A DNA stretch of 64,000 nucleotides from Gluconacetobacter azotocaptans (GTDB lineage Bacteria > Pseudomonadota > Alphaproteobacteria > Acetobacterales > Acetobacteraceae). Under the pieces are notes generated by a model. It worked only from the letters and a program-made list of their open reading frames with translations, had not been told where the DNA came from and did not search any database. The stretch spans positions 62,001 through 126,000 of the forward strand of contig NZ_JABEQF010000002.1 of assembly GCF_014174355.1 (NCBI RefSeq), given 5' to 3'. This document shows, one piece after another, positions 4,534-34,984 of this stretch. The translations under genes were made by a program, and so were the position numbers. The first letter of the stretch is position 1. Each line of letters starts with the position of its first letter.

Positions 4534-5991
4534 TCAACGACCGTGTCGTCGTAAGAGGGACCGGGATGCGGCGGCGCCGAACCCGGCCGCCAGGGCGAGT
4601 GCGACGAACGTCACGCCCTGCGTGACGCGATCGTCCGGCACGCCGCCCGCAAGTGCGATGCCGAGGCAGGCCAGGGCGGACAGGCCCAGCAGTTCGCCCC
4701 AGGCGCGTGCGGGTGTGCGCAGCGCGCCGACGATCAGGACGATGGCCCATGTGATGAAGACCGACCGGACCTCCAAGGCCGATCGGCCCGCCATATCCGC
4801 CGGGATCAACCGGTTTGCCAGGAAGAAAGCGGCGAAGGCGGCGGGCGTGCCGGCGATGACGCCCACGTTCAGCCGTTCCACCAGCGCCGTCCCCACCCCG
4901 GGGTCGCGGTGGTGCCGCTTGATCGTCCACAGCCGCAATCCGCTGCCGATCAGGCCGGCCAGCATGATCCCCGAAAGGAAATACAGCCAGCGCGTCACGC
5001 GCGGCGCAAAATGGGCGACGTGAAGGCCGTAGAGAAAATTGAAGAGGCTCATGGCCGGCCGTCCTTCGACATGTTCGGCGAGGATCCGGCCGGTGACGCC
5101 GTCGAAGCTGAGCACATGATGGTCGACGCCGATCGCGCCCCCGCCGCCGGCGACCATGGTGACGACCGACGCGGCGTCGCCGGGGTTGAGGATGGTCACC
5201 GGCCCCAGGCCGGCCGGCCCGAAACGCCGTTCGGCCTCGCGCAGCATCGGCACGATCGGCGCGGGCGTTCCCGGGTGGCCGGTGGCGGGGCGATCGATCG
5301 CCGCCGGATTCAGCTCCTGCTGCACGGCCGACATATCGGAATGGTAGAGCGCTGCGGCGCCCCACGGCATCAGCAGGTTGGCCAGCGTGACCGCGCCGGT
5401 AAAGGCGATCATCAGATGAAACGGCAGGGCGACAACGCCGAGCATGTTATGGGCATCGAGCCAGCTGCGCTGGCCTTTGCCGGGCCTGAACGTGAAGAAA
5501 TCGGCGAAGAAACGCCGATGCGCGACGATCCCGGTCAGCAGCCCCAGCACCAGGACCATCGCGGCCACCGCCGCCAGCAGGCGGCCCCACGGGTAGGACA
5601 GTTGCAGTTCGAAATGGAAGCGGTAGAAGAATTCGCCCCCCAATGTGTCGCGTATCGAGGCCGGGCTGCCGCTCCGCGGGTCGAGCGCGCGCTGCACGTA
5701 CTCCCCGCCCTCGGCCCAGAGGGCCTTCGTATAGGGGGCGCGGTCGCTGGCGACGTCCAGATACCAGGCGGGCGAATGCGCGGCATGAACCGACAGCCAC
5801 CGGATCGCGGCGTCGGTCGCGGTAACGGGGTCGGCGGTGCGGCCCAGTATTTCAGGCCGCATCCATGCGCCGATTTCCGGTCGAAAGACGCTGAGCGTGC
5901 CCGACAGCACGATCGCGAAGAGCAGCCAGCCCGTCACCAGGCCCGACCAGCCATGCAACCATGCCATCGCGGCTCGGAAGCCGGGCCTCAT
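4534..5991 (-). CDS. PepSY-associated TM protein (putative siderophore-iron reductase)
   Basis: The protein has 485 aa with PepSY_TM organisation. A first TM segment contains MAWLHGWSGLVTGWLLFAIV, a periplasmic PepSY region follows, then paired TM helices with haem-ligand-like histidines (LDAHNMLGVVALPFHLMIAF; LYGLHVAHFAPRVTRW), and three or four further TM segments lie at the C-terminus. Proteins of this type are thought to reduce ferric siderophores at the inner membrane. It is preceded by DUF3649 with ATGA overlap and followed by DUF3325 after one base. The start was set at the ATG inside that overlap; the longer in-frame extension is non-coding in character. Confidence 0.85.
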   Translation of the reverse strand: MRPGFRAAMAWLHGWSGLVTGWLLFAIVLSGTLSVFRPEIGAWMRPEILGRTADPVTATDAAIRWLSVHAAHSPAWYLDVASDRAPYTKALWAEGGEYVQRALDPRSGSPASIRDTLGGEFFYRFHFELQLSYPWGRLLAAVAAMVLVLGLLTGIVAHRRFFADFFTFRPGKGQRSWLDAHNMLGVVALPFHLMIAFTGAVTLANLLMPWGAAALYHSDMSAVQQELNPAAIDRPATGHPGTPAPIVPMLREAERRFGPAGLGPVTILNPGDAASVVTMVAGGGGAIGVDHHVLSFDGVTGRILAEHVEGRPAMSLFNFLYGLHVAHFAPRVTRWLYFLSGIMLAGLIGSGLRLWTIKRHHRDPGVGTALVERLNVGVIAGTPAAFAAFFLANRLIPADMAGRSALEVRSVFITWAIVLIVGALRTPARAWGELLGLSALACLGIALAGGVPDDRVTQGVTFVALALAAGFGAAASRSLLRRHGR

Positions 5992-6263
5992 GGACGCCAC
6001 CCCGCCAGCATCGCGGCCCCGCCCAGCAGAAGTGCGGCAAGGATGATGCCCATCCACGCACGGGTGGCGCTGCGGGCGTAAAAGCAGGCCATCACGATCG
6101 GCGGCCATACCAGCAGGCCCAGCATCGCGCCAGCGCTGGCGGCATCCGCCCTGGACATCGGCAACCCGTAGGCGGCGGCGACGGCCACCAGCGACGCCAC
6201 GCCGTAGCCCCCGCCCGCACCCGCCGCAATCCGCGCGACGATGGCCAGGTGCCCGCGCGTCAT
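5988..6263 (-). CDS. DUF3649 small membrane protein (iron uptake)
   Basis: This 91-aa protein has three hydrophobic helices. The LVWPPIVMACFYARSATRAW stretch in the middle is typical of DUF3649 iron-uptake proteins. Its stop codon overlaps the PepSY start codon. Upstream lies a repeat and then the end of the siderophore receptor gene on the same strand, so receptor, DUF3649, PepSY and DUF3325 form an ordered iron-uptake block. The biochemical role of the family is not established. Confidence 0.8.
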   Translation of the reverse strand: MTRGHLAIVARIAAGAGGGYGVASLVAVAAAYGLPMSRADAASAGAMLGLLVWPPIVMACFYARSATRAWMGIILAALLLGGAAMLAGWRP

Positions 6264-6284
6264 GGGGTTATACCAATCCGCCTT

Positions 6285-6360
6285 ATGGATGATGCGCCGG
6301 TGGCAAGCCTCGGGGCGCTACCCTGAAACCCGCCAAAGGGCATTGCCCTTTGGAAATCCG
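6285..6360 (-). repeat. Dispersed intergenic palindrome, family A, copy 2 (inverted)
   Basis: CCAAAGGGC-att-GCCCTTTGG at 6333-6353 is a perfect 9-bp hairpin. Read on the minus strand it is followed by CGGGTTTCAGGGTAGCGCCC, the same order as in copies 1 and 4. It sits between the receptor stop codon and the DUF3649 start, and may also act as an attenuator. Confidence 0.7.
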
Positions 6361-6372
6361 GTCGTTGGCCCA

Positions 6373-8571
6373 TTACCAACTGAATCCGACCGACGCCTGG
6401 GCCGCACGACGTTCCCCGTACCAGCACCATTCGTCATACGGGGCATAGCCATAGCAGCTTGCGACATAGCGCTTGTTGAACAGGTTGCGCACGCTGGCCT
6501 GGACCTTCCAGCCCTTGAAGGCATGGCCGAGATTGGCAAGGTCGTAGCTCGCCGTGGCGTCGAACAGGGTGTAGCTGGGTACCGTGACGTCACCATAGGA
6601 CGCCGTGCCGCCATAGGAACTGGCGACATGGCGCAGGCCGCCGCCGAAGCCCAGCCCCTTCAGCGGAGTCGACTGCATCGTGTAGAAGGCGAACAGCGAT
6701 TCGCCGCCCTTGCCGACCTGGACCAGCGGCTTGTGGGTGGAAAGATCACGCACCTTCTGCGTGCTGACCGTGGCGACCACCGTCAGGCCCTTGTAGACAT
6801 TGACATGCGCCTCGAACTCGAAACCGTCGGAACGGACCTTGCCGTTTTCGACGCTGTAGTTCGCGTTGGGCACCGCCGTCAGGACATTCGTCTGCTCGAT
6901 ATGGAAGCCCGCGGCGGTCAGCAGGATCGGCAGGCCGGGGATCTGGTATTTCACGCCCCCTTCAAGCTGCTTGCCCATCGTCGGGTCCGCCTGGCGCGTT
7001 GTGCGGCCGCCATTGTCGGACGTTATGCCGGATTGCGGCTGGAAGGAGGTCGAATAGCTGATGTACGGGGCAAGGCCGAAATTGAAATGGTACAGCCCCG
7101 AGGCCCGCCAGGTGATCTGTTCCGGGCTCTGGCTGGAGCTGCTGCCGCCGATGTAGTCCTGCTGATGGCTGCGGTACCAGTCGTTGCGCAGGCTTCCCGT
7201 CAGGTGGAAGTTCCTGATGTCGATCTGGTCCTGCGCGTACAGGCCGATCTGGTGCTGGTCGGTGATATAGTGGTTGGAAATCGCCGGCGGCGTGATCGTC
7301 TGGCCATAGACCGGCTGCAGGACGTTGATGGACGGCGCGGACCCGAACCCGTCGTACTCGGTTGCCCGGCTCTGCTGATAGTCGAAGCCCATCATGACGG
7401 AATGGTGCAGGATGCCGGTCGAAAAACGGCCGGTAAACTGGTTGTCGAATGCCAGGTTTTTCAGGCGTTCATTGGCATAGGCCGTGCCGCGGCTGAAATT
7501 GCCTAGGGCCTCCTGCTCGAAATCGCGGACATAATCGGCGTCCATATAGACGCCCTCGCTGTAGACGCTTTCATAGATGGTCTTTACGTCGTCGTACCGG
7601 CCGCGCGACGAGAAGGCCCAGTTGCTGTTGAACCTGTGATTGAAAATATACGTCGTCGCCCAATGCTTGCGGTTGAATTCCTCGAAATTGGGATCGCCGT
7701 CGTAGAAATCCTGCTTGATGCGACCGAAGGCGGCCCGTCGCAGGGACCCTGCCAGGGGGACCGATCCATAGGAGGCATTCTGCGGATCGTCCTGGTAATT
7801 GCCCAGCAGGGTCAGCGTCGTGTCGCCGTCGCCGCCGATCGTGACCGCCGGGCTGATGCTGTAGCGGCGGCTTTTGGTCTGGCTGAGCTGGCTGTGCGAT
7901 CCGTTGACGGTGCCATAGAGCCGGTAGCGCACGAAGCCGTCGCGCGTCAGCGACCCCCCGACATCGCCGTCCACGCGATAGAGGTCGAAACTGCCGCCCG
8001 TCGCCGTCAGGCTTCCGTAGGATTGCGCGCTGGTCGGCAGCCTGCTGGACATCGCGACAAGGCCGCCCGGGCTGGATTGCCCGTACAGCGCCGAGGCCGG
8101 CCCCTTCAGCACCTCGATTCGGTCCAGCCGCGAGGTGTCGATCTGCGCCGTCGCGTAGCCGGTGGGGCTGTCCTGCAGCTTGAGGCCGTCGAGAAAGTTC
8201 GGAACCGTAAAGCCACGCAACGCGAACTGGTCGTACCGTGTCGCCGTGGAGCCGCGCTGATCCGGCGTAATCCCGGCCGTGTACCGCACCGCCTGGCTGA
8301 GGCTGAGAACCCCGCGCATGTCGAGTTCATGGCGATCGATGACCGTGATCGACTGGGCGGTGTCGATCAGGGGGGTGTCGCTCTTGGTTCCCGATGACGC
8401 CACGGCCGCGGATTTCCGCCCTTTGACGACGATGCTCTCGGCCTTGACCTTGGTCTTGATTGTTTTTGGGTCGGCGGTGGGTGGGGTTTCCGCCGCATGC
8501 GCCGTTCCGACGGCGACCAGAAAACCCGCCAAGGTGAGGGCGAGAGAGGGATGAAGACGTGCGGATTTCAT
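6373..8571 (-). CDS. TonB-dependent siderophore receptor (FhuA/FoxA-like)
   Basis: The protein has 732 aa with a signal peptide (MKSARLHPSLALTLAGFLVA, AHAAE). A plug domain follows (SITVIDRHELDMRGVLSLSQ; YDQFALRGFTV; RIEVLKGPASALYGQSSPGG), then a 22-strand barrel ending in an aromatic residue (ASVGFSW). Two cysteines in a late loop (ASCYGYAPYDEWCWYGERR) match the conserved pair of ferric hydroxamate receptors. It transports ferric siderophores across the outer membrane using TonB. A perfect 7-1-7 Fur box lies 37 bp upstream of the ATG, and iron-uptake membrane proteins follow downstream. The hydroxamate preference is inference. Confidence 0.92.
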   Translation of the reverse strand: MKSARLHPSLALTLAGFLVAVGTAHAAETPPTADPKTIKTKVKAESIVVKGRKSAAVASSGTKSDTPLIDTAQSITVIDRHELDMRGVLSLSQAVRYTAGITPDQRGSTATRYDQFALRGFTVPNFLDGLKLQDSPTGYATAQIDTSRLDRIEVLKGPASALYGQSSPGGLVAMSSRLPTSAQSYGSLTATGGSFDLYRVDGDVGGSLTRDGFVRYRLYGTVNGSHSQLSQTKSRRYSISPAVTIGGDGDTTLTLLGNYQDDPQNASYGSVPLAGSLRRAAFGRIKQDFYDGDPNFEEFNRKHWATTYIFNHRFNSNWAFSSRGRYDDVKTIYESVYSEGVYMDADYVRDFEQEALGNFSRGTAYANERLKNLAFDNQFTGRFSTGILHHSVMMGFDYQQSRATEYDGFGSAPSINVLQPVYGQTITPPAISNHYITDQHQIGLYAQDQIDIRNFHLTGSLRNDWYRSHQQDYIGGSSSSQSPEQITWRASGLYHFNFGLAPYISYSTSFQPQSGITSDNGGRTTRQADPTMGKQLEGGVKYQIPGLPILLTAAGFHIEQTNVLTAVPNANYSVENGKVRSDGFEFEAHVNVYKGLTVVATVSTQKVRDLSTHKPLVQVGKGGESLFAFYTMQSTPLKGLGFGGGLRHVASSYGGTASYGDVTVPSYTLFDATASYDLANLGHAFKGWKVQASVRNLFNKRYVASCYGYAPYDEWCWYGERRAAQASVGFSW

Positions 8572-23362: not shown

Positions 23363-23512
23363 GCCAGGAATCCTTCGCGATGGGCAGGATACATATCGTA
23401 GCAGGACTGCCCCGCTGCGCGCCACCCGGTTGCGGCTCAGTCGCGGTGACCCTTGGGGCCCGCGGGCCTGTTCACCGGCGGACCATATCGATATCGGAAT
23501 CAGTTGAACTGG

Positions 23513-23536
23513 TCGGATATCGGCTACAATATCCGA
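23513..23536. promoter_or_regulatory. Perfect inverted repeat upstream of the aminotransferase
   Basis: TCGGATAT-cggctaca-ATATCCGA has 8-bp arms and an 8-bp spacer and ends 45 bp before the aminotransferase start. It has operator layout. The regulator is unknown; the nearby GntR protein is one candidate. Confidence 0.5.
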
Positions 23537-23581
23537 TATGCCATCACGCCGATGCGCCGCCACAGGGAATACGCCCAGATC

Positions 23582-24945
23582 ATGACCGACAAGACCGAGG
23601 ACACCGCGACCGAGATGCGGGACGCGCGCTACGTCATGCATCAGCTGACCGATGCGCGCGCGAACCTGCAAAGCGGGTCGCTGATCATCGACCGGGGCGA
23701 GGGCATTCATGTCTACGACCTGGCCGGCAACCGCTATATCGAGGCGATGGCCGGCCTGTGGAGCGTCGGTCTGGGCTTCAGCGAGCCTCGTCTGATCGAG
23801 GCGGCGATGCGGCAGATGACGCGTCTGCCCTATTACCACACAAGGGGCACGGCCCCATGGTCGATCTGGCGGAAATGCTGGTCACGATGGCGCCTGTGCC
23901 GATGAGCAAGGCCTTCTTCACCAATTCGGGGTCCGAGGCGAACGATACCGTCATCAAGATGCTCTGGTACCGCGCCAACGCGCTGGGCCAGCCCCAACGC
24001 AAGAAGATCATCAGCCGCCACCGCGCCTATCACGGCATCACCGTCGCGTCGGGCAGCCTGACCGGGATCACGGCCAACCACACGTCGTTCGACCTGCCGC
24101 TGCCCGGCTTCCTGCATCTGACCACCCCCCATTACCGCCGCGAGGCGCGGCCCGGCGAAAGCGAGGAGGATTTCGCCACCCGCCTGGCGCAGGAACTGGA
24201 GGACATGATCCAGCGCGAAGGGTCGGAAACGATCGCGGCCTTCTATGGCGAGCCCGTGATGGGCGCCGGCGGGGTGATCGTGCCGCCCGCGACCTATTGG
24301 GAGAAGATCCAGGCGGTGCTGGCCCGCCATGACATTCTGCTGGTGGCGGATGAGGTGATCACCGGCTTCGGGCGCACCGGGCGCATGTTCGGGTGCGAGA
24401 CGTACGGGATCAAGCCCGACATCATGGTGCTGTCCAAGCAGATCTCATCCTCCTACCTGCCGATTTCCGCCATTCTGCTGAACGAGAAGGTGTTCGAGCC
24501 GATCGCCGACCAGACCCATGCGATCGGCACGTTCGGCCATGGCTTCACCGGCGGCGGGCACCCGGTGGCCGCCGCCGTGGCGATCGAGACCATCCGCATC
24601 ATCCGCGAACGCGACCTGGTGGCCCATGTCGCCGAGACCGGCGCGTGGATGCAGGACCGCCTGGCCAGCCTGGCCGATCATCCGCTGGTGGATGAAATCC
24701 GGGGCGTCGGGCTGGTGGCGGCGGTCGAACTGAGTGCGGCCAAGCTGTCGCCCGCCGTCCCCCTGGCGGCCGGGGCGCTGGGGAAGCGGGCGGCGCTGCA
24801 TCTGCAGAATGGCGGGGTGATTTCCCGCGCCATGGGCGATGCGCTGGCCCTCTGCCCGCCGATGATCATCGACCGCGACGGGATCGACGCCATCGTCGCC
24901 GCCCTGCGCCACGCCCTGGATCGCTGCCTGGAGGAACTGGCCTGA
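23582..24945 (+). pseudogene. Class III (omega) aminotransferase, broken by a frameshift
   Basis: The first frame encodes about 87 residues of an intact N-terminus (HVYDLAGNRYIEAMAGLWSV) up to RLPYYHT near 23845, then drifts into unrelated sequence and stops at 23905. The next frame carries the rest from HKGHGPMVDLAEML. It has the PLP-enzyme hallmarks FTNSGSEANDTVIKMLWYRA, LLVADEVITGFGRTG and the Schiff-base region DIMVLSKQISSSYLPISAIL. Family proteins read YYHTF-x-HKGHGP here, so about 10 bp between two CAC repeats seem to be lost; this is inferred. The intact enzyme would transfer amino groups from amines or beta-amino acids to pyruvate. It sits beside D-amino-acid and dimethylamine genes. 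A sequencing error cannot be excluded. Confidence 0.85.
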
Positions 24946-24985: not shown

Positions 24986-25112
24986 GAAGGAAGGTCGGGC
25001 TCCGCCCCAGCCCGGCAAGGGCCTCGGCCCTTGCCTCCCGTTCGTTTGTCCCAGTGATCGGGGTCCAGGGCCTCAGGCCCTGGTGGGTTCGGGCGAAGCC
25101 CGCCTGTGCTGC
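24986..25112 (+). repeat. Dispersed intergenic palindromes, family B, copies 2-3
   Basis: Two adjoining modules are present. AAGGTCGGGCTCCGCCCCAG with CAAGGGCCTCGGCCCTTG comes first, then GGTCCAGGGCCTCAGGCCCT with GGTTCGGGCGAAGCCCGCC. They separate the convergent aminotransferase and EamA genes and can form strong bidirectional hairpins. Confidence 0.75.
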
Positions 25113-25121
25113 CCGTTGGTA

Positions 25122-26084
25122 TTATGCCCCCCGGCGCATCATCAACGCGATGCTGCCCAGCACCACGGCCATGCCCGCCATTGCCAGCGCGGCCGGTCGT
25201 TCCCCCAGCACCATCCAGCCCAGCAGGACGCCGACGACCGGATTGACGTAGGCGAAGGTGGACGCCATTTCGGGCGAGAAGCTGCGCAGGACGACGATAT
25301 AGGACGCCGGTGCGACGACCGAGCCGAAGATGACCAGGAAGGCGAAGGATGCGGCCTGCGTCGCCCCGACATGGGCGGGGACGGACCATCCGCCGGCCGA
25401 GGACGCGCCCCCCAGAATCAGCGCCGCCACCCCCATCTGGATGGCCGCCGTCCAACCGGGCCGCAGCCGGCCGGCCAGCCGGCGCTGCAGCACCGTGCCC
25501 AGCGCCCAGGTGACGGCCGCCAGTTGCAGCACCAGCACCACGACCACCGGATGGCGGGTGACGATGGCGCCCTGGCCCGACAGGGCCGGCGCCACCACCA
25601 TGACCAGCCCGCCCAGCCCCAGCGGCAGCGCCGCCAGCACCCGGGGTGTCGGCCTGGCGCGGTTCAGCACGCAGTCGAGCAGCGTGCACCACAGGGGGAT
25701 CGTCCCCATCGCCATGACGATGAAGCCGGAATGCGCATAGGGCGCGCAGGACGTCGCCAGCGCGTTGCCGCCCACCCACATCAGGATGCCCGTCAGCGCG
25801 CACAGGCCGGCCTCGCGCCAGCTCAGACGGCCCGGCCCGCCATGCCGCACGGCAGTGATGCAGGCCAGCAGCAGCGCGCCGCAGCCCTCGCGCAGCACCT
25901 GCAGATGCAGCGGCGAGAGCGGCGCCGGCCCGGACAGGCACAGTTTCACCGCCAGATAGGTGCTGCCCCAGATCAGGTAGATCGCCAGCAGATGTCCGTA
26001 CGCGCCCATCGGGCCACGCGCGCGTGCCGGCCGGCCCGTTGCGGTTGCGGTCTGAAGGGTCAATGGTGGAGCCTCGGGGGCCAT
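25122..26084 (-). CDS. EamA/DMT-family transporter
   Basis: This 320-aa protein has ten TM segments in two EamA repeats, with the family sequences LLAIYLIWGSTYLAVKL near the start and AYVNPVVGVLLGWMVLGER near the end. Such permeases export amino acids or related metabolites. It is the last gene of an operon: RidA ends 14 bp upstream and the racemase and amino-acid dehydrogenase precede that. This suggests export of, or relief from, an amino acid handled by those enzymes. The start is set at the ATG before APEAPPLTLQ; the Arg-rich in-frame upstream stretch overlaps the ridA gene. Confidence 0.88.
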   Translation of the reverse strand: MAPEAPPLTLQTATATGRPARARGPMGAYGHLLAIYLIWGSTYLAVKLCLSGPAPLSPLHLQVLREGCGALLLACITAVRHGGPGRLSWREAGLCALTGILMWVGGNALATSCAPYAHSGFIVMAMGTIPLWCTLLDCVLNRARPTPRVLAALPLGLGGLVMVVAPALSGQGAIVTRHPVVVVLVLQLAAVTWALGTVLQRRLAGRLRPGWTAAIQMGVAALILGGASSAGGWSVPAHVGATQAASFAFLVIFGSVVAPASYIVVLRSFSPEMASTFAYVNPVVGVLLGWMVLGERPAALAMAGMAVVLGSIALMMRRGA

Positions 26085-26098
26085 TTTCAGACGGACTC

Positions 26099-26452
26099 TC
26101 AGCGCGCGGCGACGATGCCGATTTCCACCGTGAACTGCGGCGCCGCCAGGCGCGATTCGACGCAGGCCCGGGCTGGCGTCGCCCCGGGGATTACCCAGGC
26201 GTCCCATATGGCGTTCATCTCGTCGAAATCCGTCATGTCGGCCAGCCAGATCGTGGCGGTCAGCAGCTTCGTCTTGTCGCTGCCGGCCTCGGCCAGCAGG
26301 GTGTCGATGCGGGCCAAGATGTCGGCCGTCTGGGCGGCGACGGGCTGGCCCGGCGCGTCCAGGGCGACCTGCCCCGCCAGATAGATCGTGTCGCCATGAA
26401 TGACGGCCTGGCTCATTCTCGGGCCGGATTGGATGCGGGTGACGCTGGTCAT
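26099..26452 (-). CDS. RidA-family imine/enamine deaminase
   Basis: This 117-aa protein has full RidA length. It contains the N-terminal GPRMSQAVIHGDTIYLAGQV, the central QTADILARIDTLLAEAGSDK and, near the C-terminus, ARACVESRLAAPQFTVEI with the substrate-binding Arg and Glu region. RidA proteins hydrolyse reactive imines formed by amino-acid oxidising enzymes. The D-amino-acid dehydrogenase two genes upstream would generate such an imine, so the context explains its presence. Spacing to neighbours is 28 bp upstream and 14 bp downstream. Confidence 0.9.
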   Translation of the reverse strand: MTSVTRIQSGPRMSQAVIHGDTIYLAGQVALDAPGQPVAAQTADILARIDTLLAEAGSDKTKLLTATIWLADMTDFDEMNAIWDAWVIPGATPARACVESRLAAPQFTVEIGIVAAR

Positions 26453-26480
26453 TGCCGTGCTCTTTCGTGGGAAGGTGATG

Positions 26481-27260
26481 TCAGAGGCGGAACAGGCGCC
26501 CGGCGCCCGGACGCGGATCGGCGATGCCGGCCAGGCGCAGCATGTGCCAGGCCATCGCATGGTTGCTGGAGGTCACGGGAAGGCCGATCCGGCGTTCGAT
26601 CCGCTCGACGGCCTCGGCCACCCGCAGGCTGGTGCAGGAGACGAACAGCGCGTCGACGGCGCCGGACCGGGCCATGCGCGCGGCCGCATCCTCGATATCC
26701 GCCACCGAGATCCGCGCGGCGTCGCGGTCGTCCACCCGGTCGAAGGTCGCCGTCGCCGCGATATGCACGCCCCGACCGGCGAAATATGCAGCGATGCGCC
26801 GGTTGATGTCGGGGCGATAGGGCGTCAGCAGGCCGATCCTACAGGCACCGAAGGCGGCGAACGCCGCCAGCGCGCCGGTGATCGGCGTGGTGCAGGCCAC
26901 GCCGGGCCGGGCCTTGCGGAGTTCGGCGAACACCGCGTCCTCGCCCAGCACCATGGTGGCGGAGGTGCAGCCGAACGCCACGACGTCCAGCGGGCAGCCG
27001 GGCAGGAGTAGGGCCGCGCCATCGGTCAGGCGCGCGCCGATGGCCTGCAGGGTGGCGGGCGTGATGTCCGCGTCGTTGAACACCCGCGCCACGTAGAAGG
27101 CGACCCCCGGGAAGGTCGGCCCATCCAGCAGGAAGCGGAATTCATGTTCCAGCGTCTGGTCGGTGGCCAGCACCACGACGCCCAGCGCCGCCCGCGCTGC
27201 CAGGCCGCCATCCAGGGCCGAGTCCATGACCCCCAGGTCGAGGGGCGGTGCCTGTGTCAT
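26481..27260 (-). CDS. Asp/Glu racemase superfamily protein (maleate isomerase/EutA-like)
   Basis: This 259-aa protein carries the paired catalytic-type cysteines of the superfamily: Cys98 (AFGCTSATMV) and Cys209 (VSCTSLRVAE), with PITGALAAFAAFG and RIGLLTPYRPDINRRI between them. The family includes arylmalonate decarboxylase, maleate isomerase, hydantoin racemase and EutA. With an amino-acid dehydrogenase and RidA in the same operon, a racemase feeding the dehydrogenase is the simplest reading, but the substrate is unknown. The start overlaps the dadA-like stop by 4 bp (ATGA). Confidence 0.8.
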   Translation of the reverse strand: MTQAPPLDLGVMDSALDGGLAARAALGVVVLATDQTLEHEFRFLLDGPTFPGVAFYVARVFNDADITPATLQAIGARLTDGAALLLPGCPLDVVAFGCTSATMVLGEDAVFAELRKARPGVACTTPITGALAAFAAFGACRIGLLTPYRPDINRRIAAYFAGRGVHIAATATFDRVDDRDAARISVADIEDAAARMARSGAVDALFVSCTSLRVAEAVERIERRIGLPVTSSNHAMAWHMLRLAGIADPRPGAGRLFRL

Positions 27261-28516
27261 GGTGCATGCCCCGCCCGCGTGGCCAGCAATCCGTCCATGG
27301 GCAGGGCGGGCCGCCGGCCGGCGATCAGGTCCGCCGTGATGCGGGCCGAGCCATGCGACATCGTCCAGCCGATGTGGCCGTGACCGGTGTTGAGATACAG
27401 ATTGCGGTATCGAGCCCGTCCGAACAGCGGAAGGTTCGTCGGCGTCATCGGGCGTAGCCCCGCCCACATCTGCGCCCGCGCATAGTCCGCGCCGTCCGGA
27501 TACAGGTTGCGGACGACGTCCGTCATGAAGGTGAAGTCGGACGGTTTGTGGCTGACGTCATAGCCCGAGAACGCGGCCGTGGCGGTGACGCGGAGGCGGT
27601 CGCCGAACCGCGAGATCGCGACCAGATGATGTTCGTCGACCGATGCGATGGCGGGCGGATGGGCATGGCCGCCGATCGGGATGGTCAACGCGTAGCCCTT
27701 GATGGGATAGATCGGCAGGCGGATGCCGATCCGGCGCGCCAGGATGGGGCTGTATGACCCCAGCGCCAGCACATAGGCGTCGCCCGTGACGCGCCCGCCG
27801 CCGGTCCGGATGCCGGTCACGGCGCGCCCGTCGGTTTCGATGCCCGTGATCGTCGTCCGGGTCGCGATCTCGCCGCCGCGCGCGGCGACCAGGCCGGCCA
27901 GGGCGCGGGTGAACAGGGCCGGGTCGCCGGTCTCGTCGGTCGGGCAATGGATGGCGCCGACCACGCCCGGCGCCGCCCCCAGTACCGGGTCGAGCGCGGC
28001 GAGGCCCGTACGGTCCAGCACCCGCACGACCTGCCCGTCGGATTCCAGCAGGCGCATCTGCGCGATGCCGCGTTCCAGCGCCTGGGCGCTGCGATGGACA
28101 TACAGGATGCCACGGTCGCTGCGGTCGTAGACGATGGTCTCGCGCCCCAGCACCTCGTGCAGCACCGATTGCGAATAGGCGGCCAGCCGATGCTTCAGCA
28201 GCGTGTTGCGCCGTGCCCTGTCTGCCGTGCACTGCGCGAGAAAGCGCAGCGACCAGGCATAGAGATGCGGATCGGCCGAAAAGCGGAACCGCAGCGCCTG
28301 GTCGCGCAGGAACAGCGATTTCAGCAGGGTCATCGGTGCGGCCGGCGACGACCAGACGAAGGAATGGCCGGGGGCGACCATGCCCGCATTGCCCCAACTG
28401 GTTTCGGCCGCCACCTCGGCGCACCGGTCCAGCACGACGACCTCATGCCCGTCCCGCTGCAACTGGTAGGCGGTGGTGACGCCCACGACGCCGCCGCCCA
28501 GGATGACGATCCTCAT
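27257..28516 (-). CDS. FAD-dependent D-amino-acid dehydrogenase (DadA-like)
   Basis: The 419-aa protein has an N-terminal FAD-binding Rossmann motif (MRIVILGGGVVGVTTAYQLQ). The DadA-typical AETSWGNAGMVAPGHSFVW, IYPIKGYALTIPI and the C-terminal TGHGHIGWTMSHGSARITAD that closes the flavin site follow. It oxidises D-amino acids to 2-imino acids and passes electrons to the respiratory chain at the inner membrane. It overlaps both neighbours by 4 bp (GntR upstream, racemase downstream), so translation of the three is probably coupled. The substrate may differ from D-alanine. Confidence 0.88.
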   Translation of the reverse strand: MRIVILGGGVVGVTTAYQLQRDGHEVVVLDRCAEVAAETSWGNAGMVAPGHSFVWSSPAAPMTLLKSLFLRDQALRFRFSADPHLYAWSLRFLAQCTADRARRNTLLKHRLAAYSQSVLHEVLGRETIVYDRSDRGILYVHRSAQALERGIAQMRLLESDGQVVRVLDRTGLAALDPVLGAAPGVVGAIHCPTDETGDPALFTRALAGLVAARGGEIATRTTITGIETDGRAVTGIRTGGGRVTGDAYVLALGSYSPILARRIGIRLPIYPIKGYALTIPIGGHAHPPAIASVDEHHLVAISRFGDRLRVTATAAFSGYDVSHKPSDFTFMTDVVRNLYPDGADYARAQMWAGLRPMTPTNLPLFGRARYRNLYLNTGHGHIGWTMSHGSARITADLIAGRRPALPMDGLLATRAGHAP

Positions 28517-29184
28517 GCCACGGCCCGCGCGTAGATGCGCGCCAGCCCGTCGCGGACGCCGGCGCCGGCCTGGGCGGCGCTGTCGCCCAGATGGGCCAGC
28601 ATCAGCGCCGCTGCCTCCTCGCCATCGCCCCGCGCCACCGCGTCGGCGATGGCGACATGGTCGGTCAGCGAGCGCAGCGTCCGCGCCGGCCGTTCCAGAT
28701 TGATCTGCCGGACGAAGCGGATGCGCGCGTTTGCGTTTTCCAGGATGCGCACCCTTTCCACATTGCCGGCCAGCCGCGCCAGTTCCCGGTGGAAGGCCTC
28801 GTCACGCGCGATCAGCGTGTCGATGTCCAGCCCGTCCGCCGCCGCGACCAGGGACGCGGCGGCGGCTCGCAGGTCGGACAGGGCGCGGGCATCGCCCTGC
28901 CGGGCCGCGGCGCGGACCGATGCGGCCTCCAGGTCGCCCCGGACCTCGTACAGGGCCTCGATTTCCGAGATGCTGAGCTGGCGGCAGAAGAAGCCCTGGC
29001 CGGGGACGACCGTCAGCAGGCCCTCGCTGGCCAGCCGGTTCATCGCCTCGCGCACCGGGGCGCGGCTCATGCCCAACGTGCGGGACACCGTGCCCTCGTT
29101 CAACCGTTCGCCGGGCTTGAACGCGAAGCCGACCGCCATGCGGCGCAGGCTGTCATAGGCGCGTTCCACGCTGCTTTCGGACAT
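28513..29184 (-). CDS. GntR family regulator, FCD (FadR) subfamily
   Basis: In this 223-aa protein the winged helix-turn-helix is at residues 8-72 (GERLNEGTVSRTLGMSRAPV; REAMNRLASEGLLTVVPGQG). The FCD ligand domain follows with metal-type residues (DEAFHRELARLAGN; SLTDHVAIADAVARGDGEEA). It is the first gene of the dadA-racemase-ridA-eamA operon and divergent from the dmmABC-like operon. A GGTATACC palindrome 35 bp upstream is the likely operator, so it may control both directions. Confidence 0.9.
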   Translation of the reverse strand: MSESSVERAYDSLRRMAVGFAFKPGERLNEGTVSRTLGMSRAPVREAMNRLASEGLLTVVPGQGFFCRQLSISEIEALYEVRGDLEAASVRAAARQGDARALSDLRAAAASLVAAADGLDIDTLIARDEAFHRELARLAGNVERVRILENANARIRFVRQINLERPARTLRSLTDHVAIADAVARGDGEEAAALMLAHLGDSAAQAGAGVRDGLARIYARAVA

Positions 29185-29218
29185 GTGCCGTCCCGCCACC
29201 GTCTTCTGTCGACAGGAC

Positions 29219-29226
29219 GGTATACC
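29219..29226. promoter_or_regulatory. Probable GntR operator in the divergent spacer
   Basis: AATGGTATACCGT (read on the minus strand) contains the perfect palindrome GGTATACC, a core found at operators of FCD-type GntR proteins. It lies 35 bp before the GntR start and about 158 bp before the dmmA-like start. Confidence 0.55.
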
Positions 29227-29383
29227 ATTGCGTTTTCGTTGTGAATACGGATTCGGTTTTGCAATGGGTCGTGGAGGGGGCGATTGATTTCCGGTTGAAG
29301 CGTCCGCTACGATCCGGGACCGAATCGTCGCGGACCGGGCGTGTGCCGGCCGGACGGACAAGACCGTTCGGACAGGGGCCGCC

Positions 29384-29965
29384 ATGACGCACGAGGCAGG
29401 ACATCCGTCGGCTGAGACGGGGCGGGAACATCGCCGGTTCGTGCCGTCCGCCACCACCAACCTGCCGCGCTGGCCGGCCTCGGCCCCGGGGATCGATCCG
29501 CAGGGGCGGGGCTTTGTCCTTATGGGCCTGGGGCCGGCGGCGGCAGGGACGCTGGCCCGCTGGTCCGCCGATGTCACAGCGGCCGGCCATCCCTGCCGGC
29601 AGCGCCTTGATGCCTCTGCGCCGGCGGACGACGACGACATGCTGGCCTGGCTGGACGACGCCCTGGGCGCGGCGCGGGTAGGGTGGCGGTTGATGCTGGC
29701 CGGCCCGGCGGGCGATATCCTGATGCTGGCGGCCCGGGCGCGGGCGGCCGGCATGATCGAGGCCGAGATCCGCTGCCACGCCGTGGGCCAGGGGCCGGCC
29801 CGCCTGCAATGCGTCCATTGCAAGACCCTGTTCCGCGCGGCGGCCGGTCCAGGGTCGCACGTCGCCTGCCCCGGCTGTGGCCGCATGCTGGTCGTGCATC
29901 AGCACCTGTCGCGCCGGCTGGCGGCGCTGGTCGCCTTCAGCGTGGATGCCGAGGTGTCGGCGTGA
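29384..29965 (+). CDS. dmmA: Dimethylamine monooxygenase subunit DmmA-like
   Basis: This 193-aa protein has a C-terminal zinc ribbon with two Cys pairs (LQCVHCKTLF and VACPGCGRML), followed by VVHQHLSRRLAALVAFSVDA, the conserved tail of DmmA proteins. The middle region (GWRLMLAGPAGDILMLAARA) resembles a reductase-type nucleotide region. It is the first gene of a three-gene operon with a flavin/2Fe-2S reductase and a haem-domain protein, the order dmmA-dmmB-dmmC. The complex should oxidise dimethylamine to methylamine and formaldehyde. Its stop overlaps the next start (GTGA). The function is assigned by domain and order, not by active-site residues. Confidence 0.72.
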   Translation: MTHEAGHPSAETGREHRRFVPSATTNLPRWPASAPGIDPQGRGFVLMGLGPAAAGTLARWSADVTAAGHPCRQRLDASAPADDDDMLAWLDDALGAARVGWRLMLAGPAGDILMLAARARAAGMIEAEIRCHAVGQGPARLQCVHCKTLFRAAAGPGSHVACPGCGRMLVVHQHLSRRLAALVAFSVDAEVSA

Positions 29966-30909
29966 GCGCGCCGGCCGGCGATCTGGCCCTGCGGGTGGAG
30001 CGGATCGTCGATGTGACGCCCTCGGTCCGAGGGTTCGTCCTGCGGCCGGCCGATGGCGGGGGGCTGCCGTCCTATGCGCCCGGCAGCCATCTGGTGGTGG
30101 CATGCGGCGACCGCCGCAACGCCTATTCCCTGACGGGGGAAGGTCATGCACCCGACAGCTACGCGATTTCGGTCCTGCACCGGCCCGACGGGCAGGGGGG
30201 ATCGGCCTGGCTGCATGGGGTCCGTCCCGGGCAGGTCCTGCGGTGCGGCCGGCCGCGCGATGCGTTCGCGCCCGTGGCGACGGCGCGGCATCACCTGCTG
30301 ATCGCAGGCGGCATCGGCATCACCCCGTTCCTGTCGCACCTGTGGGCCGCGCGGCGCTGGGGGCGTCGGGTCAGCGTGCTCTACGCCGTGGGTGCGGGGG
30401 CGCCGGTGCCCCATCACGCGGAACTGACGGCGTTGGCCGGGGACGGGCTGCGGATCCTGCGCGGGCGTGCCGCCATGCAGGCGGCGATGGATCAGGCCTT
30501 GCGGACGCAGGCCCTGGGCACGCACCTGTATGTCTGCGGCCCGGACGGATTGATGGATTCGGCGCTGGCTCTGGCGCGGGGGCATGGCTGGCCCGACGAA
30601 CGCTGCCATGCCGAACGGTTCGGCGGGGTCGACGCCGCCGAGGGCGCGCCCTTTACCGTGCGGCTGCGCCGGACGGGCCGCGATATCGCGGTGGCCGCCG
30701 ATGCCAGCCTGCTGGACGCGCTGGCGGCGGCGGGGGTGGAATGGCCCGCGATGTGCCGGCGCGGCGTGTGTGGCGAATGCCGTATGGACAACGCGGCAGG
30801 GACGATCCTGCATCGCGACCTGGTGCTGTCGCCGGCCGAACGCGCCGCACAGTCCTGCCTGATGCCCTGCGTGTCGCGGGCCGAGGGTGTCCTGAGCCTC
30901 GATCTGTAG
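29962..30909 (+). CDS. dmmB: PDR/VanB-type reductase, DmmB-like
   Basis: The protein has 315 aa in three modules. An FAD/FMN-binding barrel comes first (GSHLVVACGDRRNAYSLTGE), then an NAD(P)-binding domain (LLIAGGIGITPFLSHLWAAR; YVCGPDGLMDSALALA), and last a C-terminal plant-type 2Fe-2S ferredoxin with ligands in MCRRGVCGECRM and a fourth Cys in QSCLMPC. It passes electrons from NAD(P)H to the terminal oxygenase. It starts at GTG 29962 overlapping the dmmA-like stop by 4 bp. The next gene follows 16 bp downstream. General family is certain; the partner is inferred from the operon. Confidence 0.85.
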   Translation: MSAPAGDLALRVERIVDVTPSVRGFVLRPADGGGLPSYAPGSHLVVACGDRRNAYSLTGEGHAPDSYAISVLHRPDGQGGSAWLHGVRPGQVLRCGRPRDAFAPVATARHHLLIAGGIGITPFLSHLWAARRWGRRVSVLYAVGAGAPVPHHAELTALAGDGLRILRGRAAMQAAMDQALRTQALGTHLYVCGPDGLMDSALALARGHGWPDERCHAERFGGVDAAEGAPFTVRLRRTGRDIAVAADASLLDALAAAGVEWPAMCRRGVCGECRMDNAAGTILHRDLVLSPAERAAQSCLMPCVSRAEGVLSLDL

Positions 30910-30925
30910 GGAGCCCGTGAGGCAT

Positions 30926-31903
30926 ATGGTCCAGACGATGTCCGACCCCGTCCGCGCCGCATGCATCCGGCGCTTTCCCTGGCCGTTCACCGGCGACCGC
31001 TATGCCTACAGCGCCAATGTCGAGCCCGCGCCGGGGGCGCGCCGCACGCTCGTGGGGGAATGGGGACGCACGATCCTGGACCCGGACGAAACCTATGCGG
31101 CCGAGCTGGCGGAACGGCGCGACATCCTGGCGCGCGATCCGTCCCGCCATGTCGAACTGCCGCATATGCGGGCCGCCAGTTGGGACGCCTTGCTGTGGGG
31201 GCTGCGGGAACTGGCGGCCACCGACCCGGCCATGACGCTGGACCGCCAGGGCGACGGCCATGTGTGGACGAACCGGCGGCTGGGCACGCGCCAGGCGTTC
31301 CGCTACGGCGACGATGCGTCGCTGCCGATGGGACCGCTGATGTTCCTGGGGAGCCAGATCCAGGAGGACATCGTCCTGCTGGACCAGCGCGAGGACCGGT
31401 TGTGGGCGGATGCGGGGTGCGTCACCTTCGCCTCCAACTGGTCGATGGCCTTTACCGCCGGCATGTCGTTCATGGAGATCCACGGGCCGGTGCCGCGTGA
31501 TTTCGCCGACGGTGCGATCCCGCGGGCCGAGCGCTTCCTGATACGGTTGCCGGCGGGGCAGGCCTATCGGCGGATAAACTGGACCTCGACCGCCGGGTAC
31601 CGGCTGGATACCGCGCTGGACAGCTATGCCGACTGGGGCGCATCCCGCGCCCGCATGGCCGATTGCGACGATTTCGCCGATGTTTTCCATATGCGTGTCG
31701 AGGTGCAGCATCTGGTGCGCCTGCCCGAAAGCGGGGCGATCGTGTTCCTGATCCGCACCTATCTTCTGCCGCTGGCCGATATCCTGACGGTGCCGGGCTG
31801 GCGGACGCAGTTCGCGTCGGTGCTCACGCATCTGCCCGACGATATCATTCAGTACAAGGGACTGGCGACGCTGCGGCCGCGCCTGCTGGCGCATCTGGGT
31901 TGA
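30926..31903 (+). CDS. dmmC: Haem-dependent oxidative N-demethylase family protein (DUF3445), DmmC-like
   Basis: This 325-aa protein belongs to DUF3445, recognised from RRFPWPFTGDRYAYSANVEP, EDIVLLDQREDRLWADAGCV, the Trp-containing ASNWSMAFTAGMSFMEIHGP and late FHMRVEVQHLVRLPESGAIV. The family contains a PAS-like haem domain and catalyses oxidative demethylation. As the third gene after a DmmA-like and a reductase gene it is probably the oxygenase component for dimethylamine. I placed the start at ATG 30926 with GAGG upstream; GTG 30917 and ATG 30938 are in frame and also possible. Confidence 0.8.
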   Translation: MVQTMSDPVRAACIRRFPWPFTGDRYAYSANVEPAPGARRTLVGEWGRTILDPDETYAAELAERRDILARDPSRHVELPHMRAASWDALLWGLRELAATDPAMTLDRQGDGHVWTNRRLGTRQAFRYGDDASLPMGPLMFLGSQIQEDIVLLDQREDRLWADAGCVTFASNWSMAFTAGMSFMEIHGPVPRDFADGAIPRAERFLIRLPAGQAYRRINWTSTAGYRLDTALDSYADWGASRARMADCDDFADVFHMRVEVQHLVRLPESGAIVFLIRTYLLPLADILTVPGWRTQFASVLTHLPDDIIQYKGLATLRPRLLAHLG

Positions 31904-31952
31904 GCGGGGGAAGTCCTATGTGCGCGAGGGCAACCCGAAGGGGAGTGTAAGG

Positions 31953-32060
31953 AAGGTCGGGCTTTGCCCGAGCCCACCAGGGCCTGAGGCCCTGGACCCC
32001 GATCATGGATAACAGATTGGTTCCAAAGGGCGCAGCCCTTGACCCGCCCAGGGGTCAAGC
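31953..32060 (+). repeat. Intergenic repeats: family B followed by partial family A
   Basis: AAGGTCGGGCTTTGCCCGAG and CCAGGGCCTGAGGCCCTGG (31953-31995) repeat the modules at 24986-25112. They are followed by CCCCGATCATGGATAACAGA and CCAAAGGGCGCAGCCCTT (32017-32040), the family A start. A short further palindrome GACCCGCCCAGGGGTC follows. Confidence 0.7.
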
Positions 32061-32095
32061 CCTTTGCAAACGCAGAACTTCATAACGAAGGGGAT

Positions 32096-32142
32096 GCAAG
32101 GGCCGAGGCCCTTGCCGGGTTCGGGCAGCGCCCGACTTCCCT
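32096..32142 (-). repeat. Dispersed intergenic palindrome, family B, copy 5
   Basis: AAGGGCCGAGGCCCTTGCCG and GGTTCGGGCAGCGCCCGAC adjoin directly before the stop codon of the aminopeptidase gene, where the hairpins could serve as its terminator. Confidence 0.65.
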
Positions 32143-32143
32143 C

Positions 32144-34789
32144 TTACTGGTGGCCGGGCAGCCAGGTAGTCAGCGCCGTCCGGGCCCGCGTCGCGATATC
32201 GGCGTTCGCGGCGATCAGGTCGGCGGCCTTCTTCGCCTCGATGGTAGCGCCGGTGGTGGCCTTGGTGGACGGGTCGTCCAGCAGGGCCTGGGCGATGGCC
32301 GGGTTGACCGACTGGCCGGCGACCACGGCCAGCAGGGACGATTGCGACCAGGGGGCCAGATGCGCGCGGATCTGCTTCTGCGTCTGCGGGGCCTGCACCA
32401 GCGACCACACGTGGTCCGGATTGTCGCTGCCGGCGGCAATGGCTGCCAGCATGTGGACGATGCGGCCGTTCGGGATTGCGCCGCTATAGGCCAGGCGGAC
32501 CGACTGCGCGACCAGCGCCGGATCTTGCGAGGCCGCCAGGGCGCGGAAGAAGCGCAGCTTCTGCTCGGTGTCGGTCGAACTGCGGACCAGGCCGGCCAGC
32601 GTGGCGTAGGTGGCCGGATCGGCATGACGGCCGACGATCCAGCTCACCGGATCCAGCAGGCTGGGCGCCAGCGTCGACGGCGTCTTGCGCCAGGCGGCGA
32701 AGCGCGCCTGGGCCTCGGCCACCACGGCCTGATCGTCGAACTGGCCCAGGGCGGCAATCAGCTCGGGACGCAGCAGCGTGTCCAGGAAGGATTCGCCGTC
32801 ACGCGGCGTCCAGCCCAGCCGGGCCAATTGCGGCGCCAGCAGGGCGCGCGCGAAGGCCCGGAAGGCCGGACGCTGCGGGCTGCCGCGTTCCATCGTGTCC
32901 AGTTGCCGCAGGTGCGCAATCGTGTCCTGCCAGACAGCGATGCTGGTTTCCTTCTGGTCCGACAGGCCGGCAACCAGGTCCAGATAGGCCGCGAGCGGAG
33001 CCTGCCCGGCCTGGAACAGCGCGAACTGGTCGCCCAGCAGGTTGGCGCGGTCGGTCGCGTCCAAGTGGCTGAATGCCGTCCCCAGCGCCGCCAGAGACGT
33101 GGCGTCGTAAGCGGTGCGGTAATAGCCGTTTTCGCCCAGATTGGCCTTCAGCGCCTGGTTGCAGCCGGAAAAGGTCAGGGTCGCGGGCGTATCCGGCCGC
33201 AGGATGACGCGCTGCGCCGTCATGTTGGGACCACCGACGGTGACGGGGATGTTCCACCGCGCGGGCAGCGGGTGCGGGTCGTGGATGGTGAAGCGGCCCT
33301 CGGTCAGGGTCAGCACGGTTTTGCCGGCGTCGCACCGGCGCGCCACGTCGACCAGCGGAATGCCCGGCTGTTCGGTGAAGCTGCGCGCGACGGTGGCGAC
33401 ATCCTGGTGCGAGACCTGCGACAGCGCGGCCCAGAGGTCGGCGCTGGTGGTGTTGCCGTAGGCGTGGGCCTTCATGTAGGCGCGCATGCCGTTGCGAAAC
33501 GTGTCGGCGCCCAGCCAGTCCTCGGTCATGCGGATGACCTGCTCGCCCTTCTGGTAGCTGATCCGGTCGAAGGCGGTATTGGCCTCGCTGACGTCGTGGA
33601 TCACCAGCTGGATCGGGTGGGTGGTCGGATGGGCGTCCTGCGCCATCGCCTGTTCGCGGTCGGCATGCTGGCGCGGCCAGATCTGCCAGGTGGGGTTGAA
33701 ATGATCGGTGGCCTTGGTCTCCATCCAGGTCGCGAACCCTTCATTGAGCCAGATATTGTCCCACCACCCCATCGTGACCAGATCGCCCGACCATTGGTGC
33801 GCCATTTCATGGGCCACCACCAGATACACCAGTTCGCGCGTGCTGGGCGCGCTGGTGCGGGGGTCGAACAGCAGATCGTCGTCGATGAAGGTGATGGCGC
33901 CCCAGTTTTCCATCGCTCCGGCCTCGTAATTTCCGGGAATGGCAAGAAGGTCCAGCTTCGGCAGCGGGTAGGACACGCCGAAATAGTCGTTGTAGTACGG
34001 CAGAATCGCGGACGCTGCCTGCAGGGCATAGGCGCCGTTCTGCTGCACGCCGGTGGGGGCGTACACATTGATCGGCGTCGCGCCGCCGGTGCCGCTGACG
34101 GCGGAGATGTCGCCGGCGACCAGGGCCAGCAGGTAGGTGGACATGCGTGGCGTGGTGCCGAAGACCACGCGCTTGGCATGACCACCCAGCGGCGTGGACG
34201 AGGTCACGGGCATGTTGCTGACGGGCACGTAGCTGTCGGGCAGGGTCGCGGTCAGTTGGAAGGTGGCCTTGAAGGCCGGCTCGTCCCAGCCGGGGAACAT
34301 GCGGCGGGCGTCGGCGACCTCGAACTGCGTGACCAGCATCCGGTGGGTCTGGCCCGACGGGGTGCGGTAATCGTCGTAATAGATGCCGTTCGGCGTCGCC
34401 GGGATCGGGCCGCTGTACTCGATGACCAGCGTGTGGGGGCCGGCCGCGACCGCATGCGGCAGGGTCAGGGTGGCGGTCTGCGCCGCGTCGTCCTGGGTGA
34501 TGGCGGCGGCAAGTCCGTCCAGCTTCGCCGACAGCAACTTCAACCCTGCCTGGTTCAGCGTGATGCTGGCGGTGGGTGCGGTAACGGTGACGTCGATGCT
34601 TTCATGCCCGCCCAGGGTCAGGCGCTTCATGTCGGTGGCGATGTCGATCCGGTATGCGCTGGGGACCACGGTCTTGGGCAACTGGCCGGGGGCGTGGGCG
34701 AAATCGAAGGGGGCTTCGCCATGCGCCGGGCCCGGCAGCAGGGCAACGCCCGCCAGCAGGAGGGTGGCGATGGTGGGTATATGCCGCAT
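32144..34789 (-). CDS. Exported M1-family zinc aminopeptidase
   Basis: This 881-aa protein has a signal peptide (MRHIPTIATLLLAGVALLPG, cleavage after AHG). The exopeptidase motif GAMENWG lies near residue 292. The zinc motif HEMAHQ with the downstream Glu (WLNEGFATW) lies near residues 326-350. A C-terminal ERAP1-like helical domain occupies about residues 530-881. It removes N-terminal residues from peptides, probably in the periplasm. A large TonB receptor gene lies just upstream on the same strand, which suggests joint use of peptides. The start is set at the ATG that gives the signal peptide; the longer in-frame form is rejected. Confidence 0.92.
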   Translation of the reverse strand: MRHIPTIATLLLAGVALLPGPAHGEAPFDFAHAPGQLPKTVVPSAYRIDIATDMKRLTLGGHESIDVTVTAPTASITLNQAGLKLLSAKLDGLAAAITQDDAAQTATLTLPHAVAAGPHTLVIEYSGPIPATPNGIYYDDYRTPSGQTHRMLVTQFEVADARRMFPGWDEPAFKATFQLTATLPDSYVPVSNMPVTSSTPLGGHAKRVVFGTTPRMSTYLLALVAGDISAVSGTGGATPINVYAPTGVQQNGAYALQAASAILPYYNDYFGVSYPLPKLDLLAIPGNYEAGAMENWGAITFIDDDLLFDPRTSAPSTRELVYLVVAHEMAHQWSGDLVTMGWWDNIWLNEGFATWMETKATDHFNPTWQIWPRQHADREQAMAQDAHPTTHPIQLVIHDVSEANTAFDRISYQKGEQVIRMTEDWLGADTFRNGMRAYMKAHAYGNTTSADLWAALSQVSHQDVATVARSFTEQPGIPLVDVARRCDAGKTVLTLTEGRFTIHDPHPLPARWNIPVTVGGPNMTAQRVILRPDTPATLTFSGCNQALKANLGENGYYRTAYDATSLAALGTAFSHLDATDRANLLGDQFALFQAGQAPLAAYLDLVAGLSDQKETSIAVWQDTIAHLRQLDTMERGSPQRPAFRAFARALLAPQLARLGWTPRDGESFLDTLLRPELIAALGQFDDQAVVAEAQARFAAWRKTPSTLAPSLLDPVSWIVGRHADPATYATLAGLVRSSTDTEQKLRFFRALAASQDPALVAQSVRLAYSGAIPNGRIVHMLAAIAAGSDNPDHVWSLVQAPQTQKQIRAHLAPWSQSSLLAVVAGQSVNPAIAQALLDDPSTKATTGATIEAKKAADLIAANADIATRARTALTTWLPGHQ

Positions 34790-34984
34790 TGGGGGCAACT
34801 CCGGAACGATGGGTTCGGGATCCGCGGAAGGGCGGGAGTATGGTCCGATGATGACGGTCGGATAGCGCATGGCCGGCCCCGGCGTCTAAACCTGACAGGC
34901 GATGTATCCCTGATGGGGAGAAGGCGCTGCCCGGCCGCGCGCAGGCAGCCTGGCCTGGTGTGCCCGGTTGTCCCGGACATGAGT

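Follow-up and report, generated by a model that had tools for sequence, protein, structure and literature searches.

We report a three-gene operon, dmmABC, whose products probably form a three-component oxygenase for the N-demethylation of dimethylamine, feeding the N-methylglutamate route. It lies in the window, a stretch of 64,000 nucleotides of the source genome (G000:C2:62001-126000; other G numbers denote genomes and L numbers loci). This assignment is based on gene content, gene order, phylogeny, predicted fold and the presence of downstream genes, from which we infer the substrate, the electron path and the joint pathway. The operon consists of the following genes:

29384..29965, plus strand: dmmA, small subunit with an N-terminal alpha/beta domain (loosely FNR-NAD-like) and a C-terminal Cys4 ribbon
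29962..30909, plus strand: dmmB, NAD(P)H-flavin-[2Fe-2S] reductase, similar in type to phthalate dioxygenase reductase
30926..31903, plus strand: dmmC, haem (PAS-fold) oxidative N-demethylase catalytic subunit of a divergent clade

The three genes are contiguous in this order, which recurs in the related loci L097 to L108. The GTG start of dmmB at 29962 overlaps the end of dmmA at 29965 by 4 bp (GTGA), and the ATG start of dmmC at 30926 follows the end of dmmB at 30909 after a gap of 16 bp, or of 7 bp with the alternative GTG start at 30917. The coordinates of the open reading frames (ORFs) bear out the gene order, the 4-bp overlap and the 16-bp gap described in an earlier note on this DNA, and the family matches agree with its description of the products as a Cys4 zinc-ribbon protein, a flavin/2Fe-2S reductase and a DUF3445 haem protein. 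Automatic gene calling missed dmmA, dmmB and a neighbouring EutA-like gene, and it placed an ORF on the opposite strand of dmmB; the analysis therefore relied on family searches and tblastn.

DmmA reaches 102.1 bits with NCBIfam NF041259 (cut-off 60) and 44.5 bits with PF22289, the DmmA C-terminal model (cut-off 27.4), and its cysteines C143, C146, C162 and C165 are invariant across 32 sequences. A fold search with its AlphaFold model (predicted local distance difference test [pLDDT] 89) returned weak matches alone (E 0.027 or worse), several of which are FNR-type NAD domains. DmmB exceeds the Pfam cut-offs for Fer2, NAD_binding_1 and PF22290, matches phthalate dioxygenase reductase (2PIA) with E=6e-40 and shows 66% identity to its counterparts in L097 and L098; no NCBIfam model reaches its own cut-off. 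For DmmC the NCBIfam search remained without any match, and PF11927, a family called DUF3445 in plasmid records, scores 186.6 bits (cut-off 25). Among the closest known proteins is HODM, the haem-dependent oxidative N-demethylase of Pseudomonas mendocina: the sequence match to structure 5LTE has E=2e-74, and the AlphaFold model (pLDDT 88.6) gives a Foldseek template modelling score of 0.90 to both 5LTE (E=3e-33) and 5LTH, with 41% identity in the fold alignment. The title of 5LTH names dimethylamine. Both proteins carry a histidine common to all three groups of the family distinguished below (H186 of the window DmmC, within an HxPVP motif), which is conserved to at least 95% in DmmC and at least 80% in generic PF11927 proteins; our guess from this conservation is that H186 is a haem ligand.

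The comparison with the family places the window protein apart from the established enzymes. Ten canonical DmmC, nine of them alphaproteobacterial and drawn from 385 genomes sampled across the class, the tenth being the second copy of G587, exhibit 55-82% identity among themselves, whereas the window DmmC has 37-43% to the same ten. Published canonical pairs share 62% and 66% (PMC5520151, PMC4543880). Relatives were collected by a scan of named genomes, and the closest among the 80 best of the 548 relatives confirmed are those of Antarcticirhabdus aurantiaca (L097, 73%) and of an Aurantimonadaceae metagenome-assembled genome (L098, 71%), followed by nine proteins of Arthrobacter, Paenarthrobacter or Cryobacterium at 51-55% and that of Arthrobacter mangrovi at 47%. 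A plasmid of Candidatus Mycobacterium methanotrophicum, with the gene order EutQ-like, DmmA, DmmB-like, DmmC and permease, encodes a DmmC with 51% identity to that of the window.

In the phylogenetic tree, which comprises 71 of 144 rows and does not include the Mycobacterium plasmid protein, the window DmmC is located inside a divergent clade (support 98/90) that is sister to the canonical clade (99/98). The latter includes HODM, the only row known to us to be characterised. Both DmmC clades together are split from generic PF11927 proteins at 100/100; the phylogeny proposed as a check in the earlier note thus groups the window protein with the HODM/DmmC side and not with DUF3445 proteins of other context. 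The three groups had initially been sorted by similarity to the window. Their gene neighbourhoods differ: a DmmB gene lies near every one of the 13 divergent and the 77 canonical members and near none of the 50 generic ones; for DmmA the counts are 13, 74 and 0. The 13 divergent loci are L097 to L108 and L065, with L105 counted although its DmmA and DmmB matches are fragmented; the generic loci, with flanks of up to about 1.5 kb, are the best-scoring ones of two scans (30 from the bacterial family, 20 from the class) and not a random draw.

PF11927 is common in the bacterial family (55 of 200 genomes), and the 30 loci taken there are generic, which could speak for a DUF3445 protein of other function standing beside a reductase gene by chance. 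This explanation is contradicted by the 100/100 split and by the adjacency of DmmA and DmmB; we regard it as exceedingly improbable and rejected it on these grounds. The dmmABC-like reading of the earlier note withstands the refutation set for it, a grouping with DUF3445 members of other function, because the tree and the gene adjacency set DmmC apart from them. It needs two refinements, of which the first is that the protein belongs to a separate deep clade and not to canonical DmmC; the second concerns the use of methylamine, treated below. Judged by its sequence, the window DmmC is a deep sister of canonical DmmC and represents a putative second deep branch of the haem N-demethylase family.

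According to the proposed mechanism, electrons would pass from NAD(P)H via the flavin and the 2Fe-2S cluster of DmmB to the haem of DmmC, which would activate O2 and oxidise one N-methyl group of dimethylamine. The oxidised product would fall apart into methylamine and formaldehyde, and DmmA would serve as an accessory subunit. The earlier note saw neither a gmaS nor a trimethylamine gene and left the use of methylamine open. Its observation holds for the window, but the search for methylamine genes elsewhere in the genome, which it had itself suggested, revealed GmaS, MgsABC and an MgdABCD-type complex on another contig, C9. The genes gmaS-mgsC-mgsB-mgsA are located at about 39.0-43.3 kb, and their products match those of the G588 cluster at 63-83%. 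GmaS matches the solved structure 7CQL with E=9e-186 and, as read from this alignment, retains all seven residues that are listed for the methylamine site in PMC7948447. At about 84.8-91.7 kb (L209) are mgdB, mgdD and mgdA, accompanied by a weak C-like match and by genes for LysR and XRE regulators; mgdB has an 87.6% match, and LysR and XRE are 77.5% and 83.5% identical to those of the gmaS-mgs cluster of G588. NCBIfam names the mgd-type proteins as sarcosine oxidase family, and a second soxBDAG-like set is present in L210 (C9:106000-119000), so that the name MgdABCD rests on homology and on the regulator likeness to the G588 cluster.

Methylamine would be converted by GmaS to gamma-glutamylmethylamide, by MgsABC to N-methylglutamate and then be taken over by the MgdABCD-type dehydrogenase. 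The formaldehyde would be oxidised to formate via S-(hydroxymethyl)glutathione dehydrogenase and S-formylglutathione hydrolase; a glutathione-dependent formaldehyde dehydrogenase (611 bits, cut-off 543.95) and an S-formylglutathione hydrolase (409 bits, cut-off 281.7) are encoded side by side on contig C8. The conversion of dimethylamine to glutamate and formate would thus be encoded in G000, if the MgdABCD-type set is as it seems, with genes on three contigs supposedly acting as one pathway and perhaps being jointly regulated. Methylamine oxidation by a copper amine oxidase was rejected, since a search of all 14 genomes of the genus, which did not cover methylamine dehydrogenase (Mau), found no such gene. 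G000 contains no second DmmC match. Apart from this route, L210 harbors, beside its soxBDAG-like set, GbcA-like (430.7 bits, below the cut-off of 670), reductase and, by eye, choline-dehydrogenase-like genes, and this combination suggests a putative breakdown of glycine betaine.

The gene neighbourhoods of the divergent clade were counted by tblastn over the 12 loci L097 to L108, with queries taken partly from L104, L105, L107 and L108 themselves, and the neighbour families were verified on L104, L105 and L107. Seven of the 12 loci contain one or more of HxlA, copper amine oxidase, trimethylamine monooxygenase (Tmm), GmaS and Mgs; the figure rises to eight if HxlB alone is counted. The individual counts are nine for the EutQ-like cupin, six for HxlB, five for HxlA, four for amine oxidase and one each for GmaS and Tmm. 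Locus L107 exhibits HxlA/HxlB for formaldehyde fixation, a permease and the EutQ-like cupin upstream and a primary-amine oxidase downstream; L099, L100 and L106 are arranged alike, and all four share the gene order EutQ-DmmA-DmmB-DmmC-Mao. In L104, a GmaS-like glutamine synthetase of type III (568.7 bits, cut-off 469.6) is accompanied by MgsABC-like genes (MgsC with an 82% match, MgsA and MgsB named by eye), and in L105 a Tmm above its own cut-off is located directly downstream of dmm. The dmm copy of L105 (Paenarthrobacter sp. PH39-S1) itself looks broken, because DmmA and DmmB each match in pieces in different frames; a 405-aa ORF between them, transposase-like by eye, lies within 5007-7947.

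The arrangement of L099, L100, L106 and L107 fits the Mao-'Tmd'-EutQ clusters of Arthrobacter and Mycobacterium described in a 2015 survey (PMC5023230). The survey found Gram-positive methylamine users without a separate dimethylamine monooxygenase, guessed that Tmo oxidises dimethylamine and proposed the ferredoxin/flavodoxin-type gene of these clusters as trimethylamine N-oxide (TMAO) demethylase 'Tmd'; the term 'dmm' does not occur in it. Its Table 2 places Tmd between Mao and EutQ, with gene numbers n for Mao, n+2 for Tmd and n+4 for EutQ in four of five strains (2723, 2725 and 2727 in strain 31Y). DmmB occupies the same slot in four of the 12 loci, and the numbers fit the order EutQ-DmmA-DmmB-DmmC-Mao with one number free on either side of Tmd, thus indicating that 'Tmd' of the Gram-positive methylotrophs is probably the DmmB of the divergent clade.

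This shared slot, and the Tmm directly downstream in L105, could also be taken to mean that the enzyme is a TMAO demethylase as proposed in 2015 (PMC5023230). A reductase, however, is by itself no demethylase, DmmC is homologous to HODM, which was solved with dimethylamine according to the title of 5LTH, a separate Tdm exists in G587 and G588, and no Tmm that would make TMAO was found in G000; we therefore consider a TMAO demethylase very unlikely. On balance we favour the view that the clade provides Gram-positive methylamine users (Arthrobacter, Cryobacterium, Mycobacterium) with their hitherto unassigned dimethylamine monooxygenase, which would work without DmmD and would have reached a few Alphaproteobacteria, including the present acetic acid bacterium, by horizontal transfer.

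The absence of DmmD is a difference from the known systems. HODM has a GcvT-type subunit, and it belongs to another clade than the window DmmC, whose operon and genome are without a DmmD-type GcvT partner in a PF01571 (GCV_T) search. The dmmD gene is found in 62 of 79 canonical loci and in 0 of the 12 divergent ones; Tmm is near canonical dmm in 45 of the 79. In the Hyphomicrobium loci L149 and L156, DmmC and a DmmD-type GcvT protein share a 737-aa frame, in which they span about residues 7-346 and 373-732, respectively; this predicted fusion represents a natural link of the demethylase and the tetrahydrofolate subunit. The dmmDABC systems of Ruegeria pomeroyi, Paracoccus aminophilus and Methylocella silvestris (PMC5520151, PMC4543880) have the same dmmA-dmmB-dmmC order and subunit types as the window; this marine/Paracoccus type also has DmmD, a GcvT-type tetrahydrofolate-binding subunit, and none was found in the window operon. 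For activity in Escherichia coli, dmmABC alone is sufficient (PMC5520151). In contrast to the clusters of PMC5023230, the window dmm genes stand without EutQ, Mao and ribulose monophosphate genes alongside. The family assignment is not wholly new, because actinobacterial copies have already been named by annotation: dmmABC of Nesterenkonia by KEGG number (PMC8875376), and DmmA in the Mycobacterium plasmid record. Searches of the open-licence literature showed us no paper in which the divergent clade of Arthrobacter or of acetic acid bacteria is given the name dimethylamine monooxygenase.

Within the genus, a DmmA-family gene is present in three of 14 genomes, namely G000, G587 (two copies) and G588, and a GmaS match of at least 66% (query from G588) in four, including all three with DmmA; the match in G580 has 38%. 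G587 harbors the orthologous divergent locus L065, whose DmmC is 93% identical to that of the window, and also a canonical dmmDABC adjoining gmaS and mgs. With both sets, L065 and L066, in one genome, G587 lends itself to a comparison of the two enzymes. In G588, DmmD, DmmA and DmmB are located with gmaS and mgs, and the canonical DmmC lies on another contig beside Tmm and Tdm. The divergent operon is patchily distributed (two of 14 genomes) and has relatives in Actinomycetota and Aurantimonadaceae, a pattern that suggests an acquisition by horizontal transfer. Two other DmmC of the genus group with Acetobacter sicerae at 100/100, and the longest of the eight plasmid matches listed out of 29 is to Komagataeibacter (75% over 1.9 kb); both indirectly fit the label of acetic acid bacterium given in the earlier note.

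Several observations weigh against a dimethylamine route. We know of no assayed or characterised member of the divergent clade, and its nearest kin among the best 80 of 548 relatives, L097 and L098, show no methylamine marker in 16.9 and 12.3 kb; none is located near dmm in L102, which has EutQ and a permease, or in L108. The genome search detected no Tmm in G000 and, unlike in G587 and G588, no DmmD-type GcvT. The methylamine genes are on another contig than dmmABC, and G585 has GmaS without a DmmA-family gene, so that the methylamine route is independent of Dmm. Finally, the operon abuts an amino-acid cassette in the window, whose features are:

28513..29184, minus strand: GntR/FCD regulator (PF00392 and PF07729 above cut-off), divergent from dmmA and first gene of the DadA cassette
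25122..28516, minus strand: DadA-like dehydrogenase, EutA/arylmalonate-decarboxylase-like protein, RidA and EamA transporter (NCBIfam and Pfam families)
29206..29215, strandless: palindrome of 10 bp, CTGTCGACAG, between dmmA and the divergent GntR gene, kept in the sister genome locus L065 (alignment)

This neighbourhood invites the reading that the divergent clade, or the window/Aurantimonadaceae branch of it, demethylates another secondary or tertiary N-methylamine, with dimethylamino compounds or N-methylated amino acids as examples, and delivers its product to the DadA/EutA-like/RidA cassette next to it. The divergent block from 25111 to 34813, with GntR and the cassette beside dmm, is collinear between the window and L065 at 90-91% DNA identity. 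Close orthologues of GntR and the EutA-like protein (92-94%) are found only in these two of the 14 genomes: GntR has a 94% match in G587 and at most 40% in the remaining genomes of the other 13, and further EutA-like matches, of 27%, occur in G042 and G587. Moreover, dmm of L097 adjoins an amidohydrolase and not methylamine genes, L098 has a like ORF, and an N-methyl-tryptophan-oxidase-like gene is located near dmm in L104 and L108. The amidohydrolase gene of Antarcticirhabdus (Amidohydro_3, L097:5057-6358) is divergent from dmmA and is followed at some distance by a gene that by eye encodes an ABC transporter; the amidohydrolase might release dimethylamine from a larger compound. However, among 24 class loci with relatives of the EutA-like protein, DadA lies within about 1.5 kb in 19 and Dmm in none, and L097 and L098 carry Dmm without the cassette. 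Furthermore, 53 positions are conserved to at least 95% in both DmmC clades, and only three clade-fixed differences reach the thresholds (two DmmC-DmmD fusion rows removed). Another N-methylamine as substrate thus appears unlikely. A functional tie of dmm to the cassette was rejected because the DadA/EutA-like pair is common without Dmm, and the GntR, DadA, EutA-like, RidA and EamA genes look like a separate cassette, judged by these neighbourhood counts, and not like a part of the demethylase.

The cassette may share the 199-bp intergenic region with dmm, where a pattern scan revealed no sigma-70-like promoter. The palindrome at 29206-29215 is a candidate operator of GntR, which may also control dmmABC. 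Further away, a class III aminotransferase gene (23380-24945) has its N-terminal part in another frame up to about 23840 and is frameshifted, either in reality or by an assembly error; it has no match at the orthologous G587 locus.

With the preferred identification as a dimethylamine N-demethylase, the haem N-demethylase family gains a second deep branch, and a probable acetic acid bacterium is predicted to have a route from dimethylamine to glutamate. If the clade is indeed the dimethylamine monooxygenase of the Gram-positive methylamine users, the TMAO demethylase gene proposed in 2015 would be its DmmB reductase. For Arthrobacter-type methylotrophs, the clade supplies a specific candidate for the dimethylamine step, which the 2015 survey did not find (PMC5023230).

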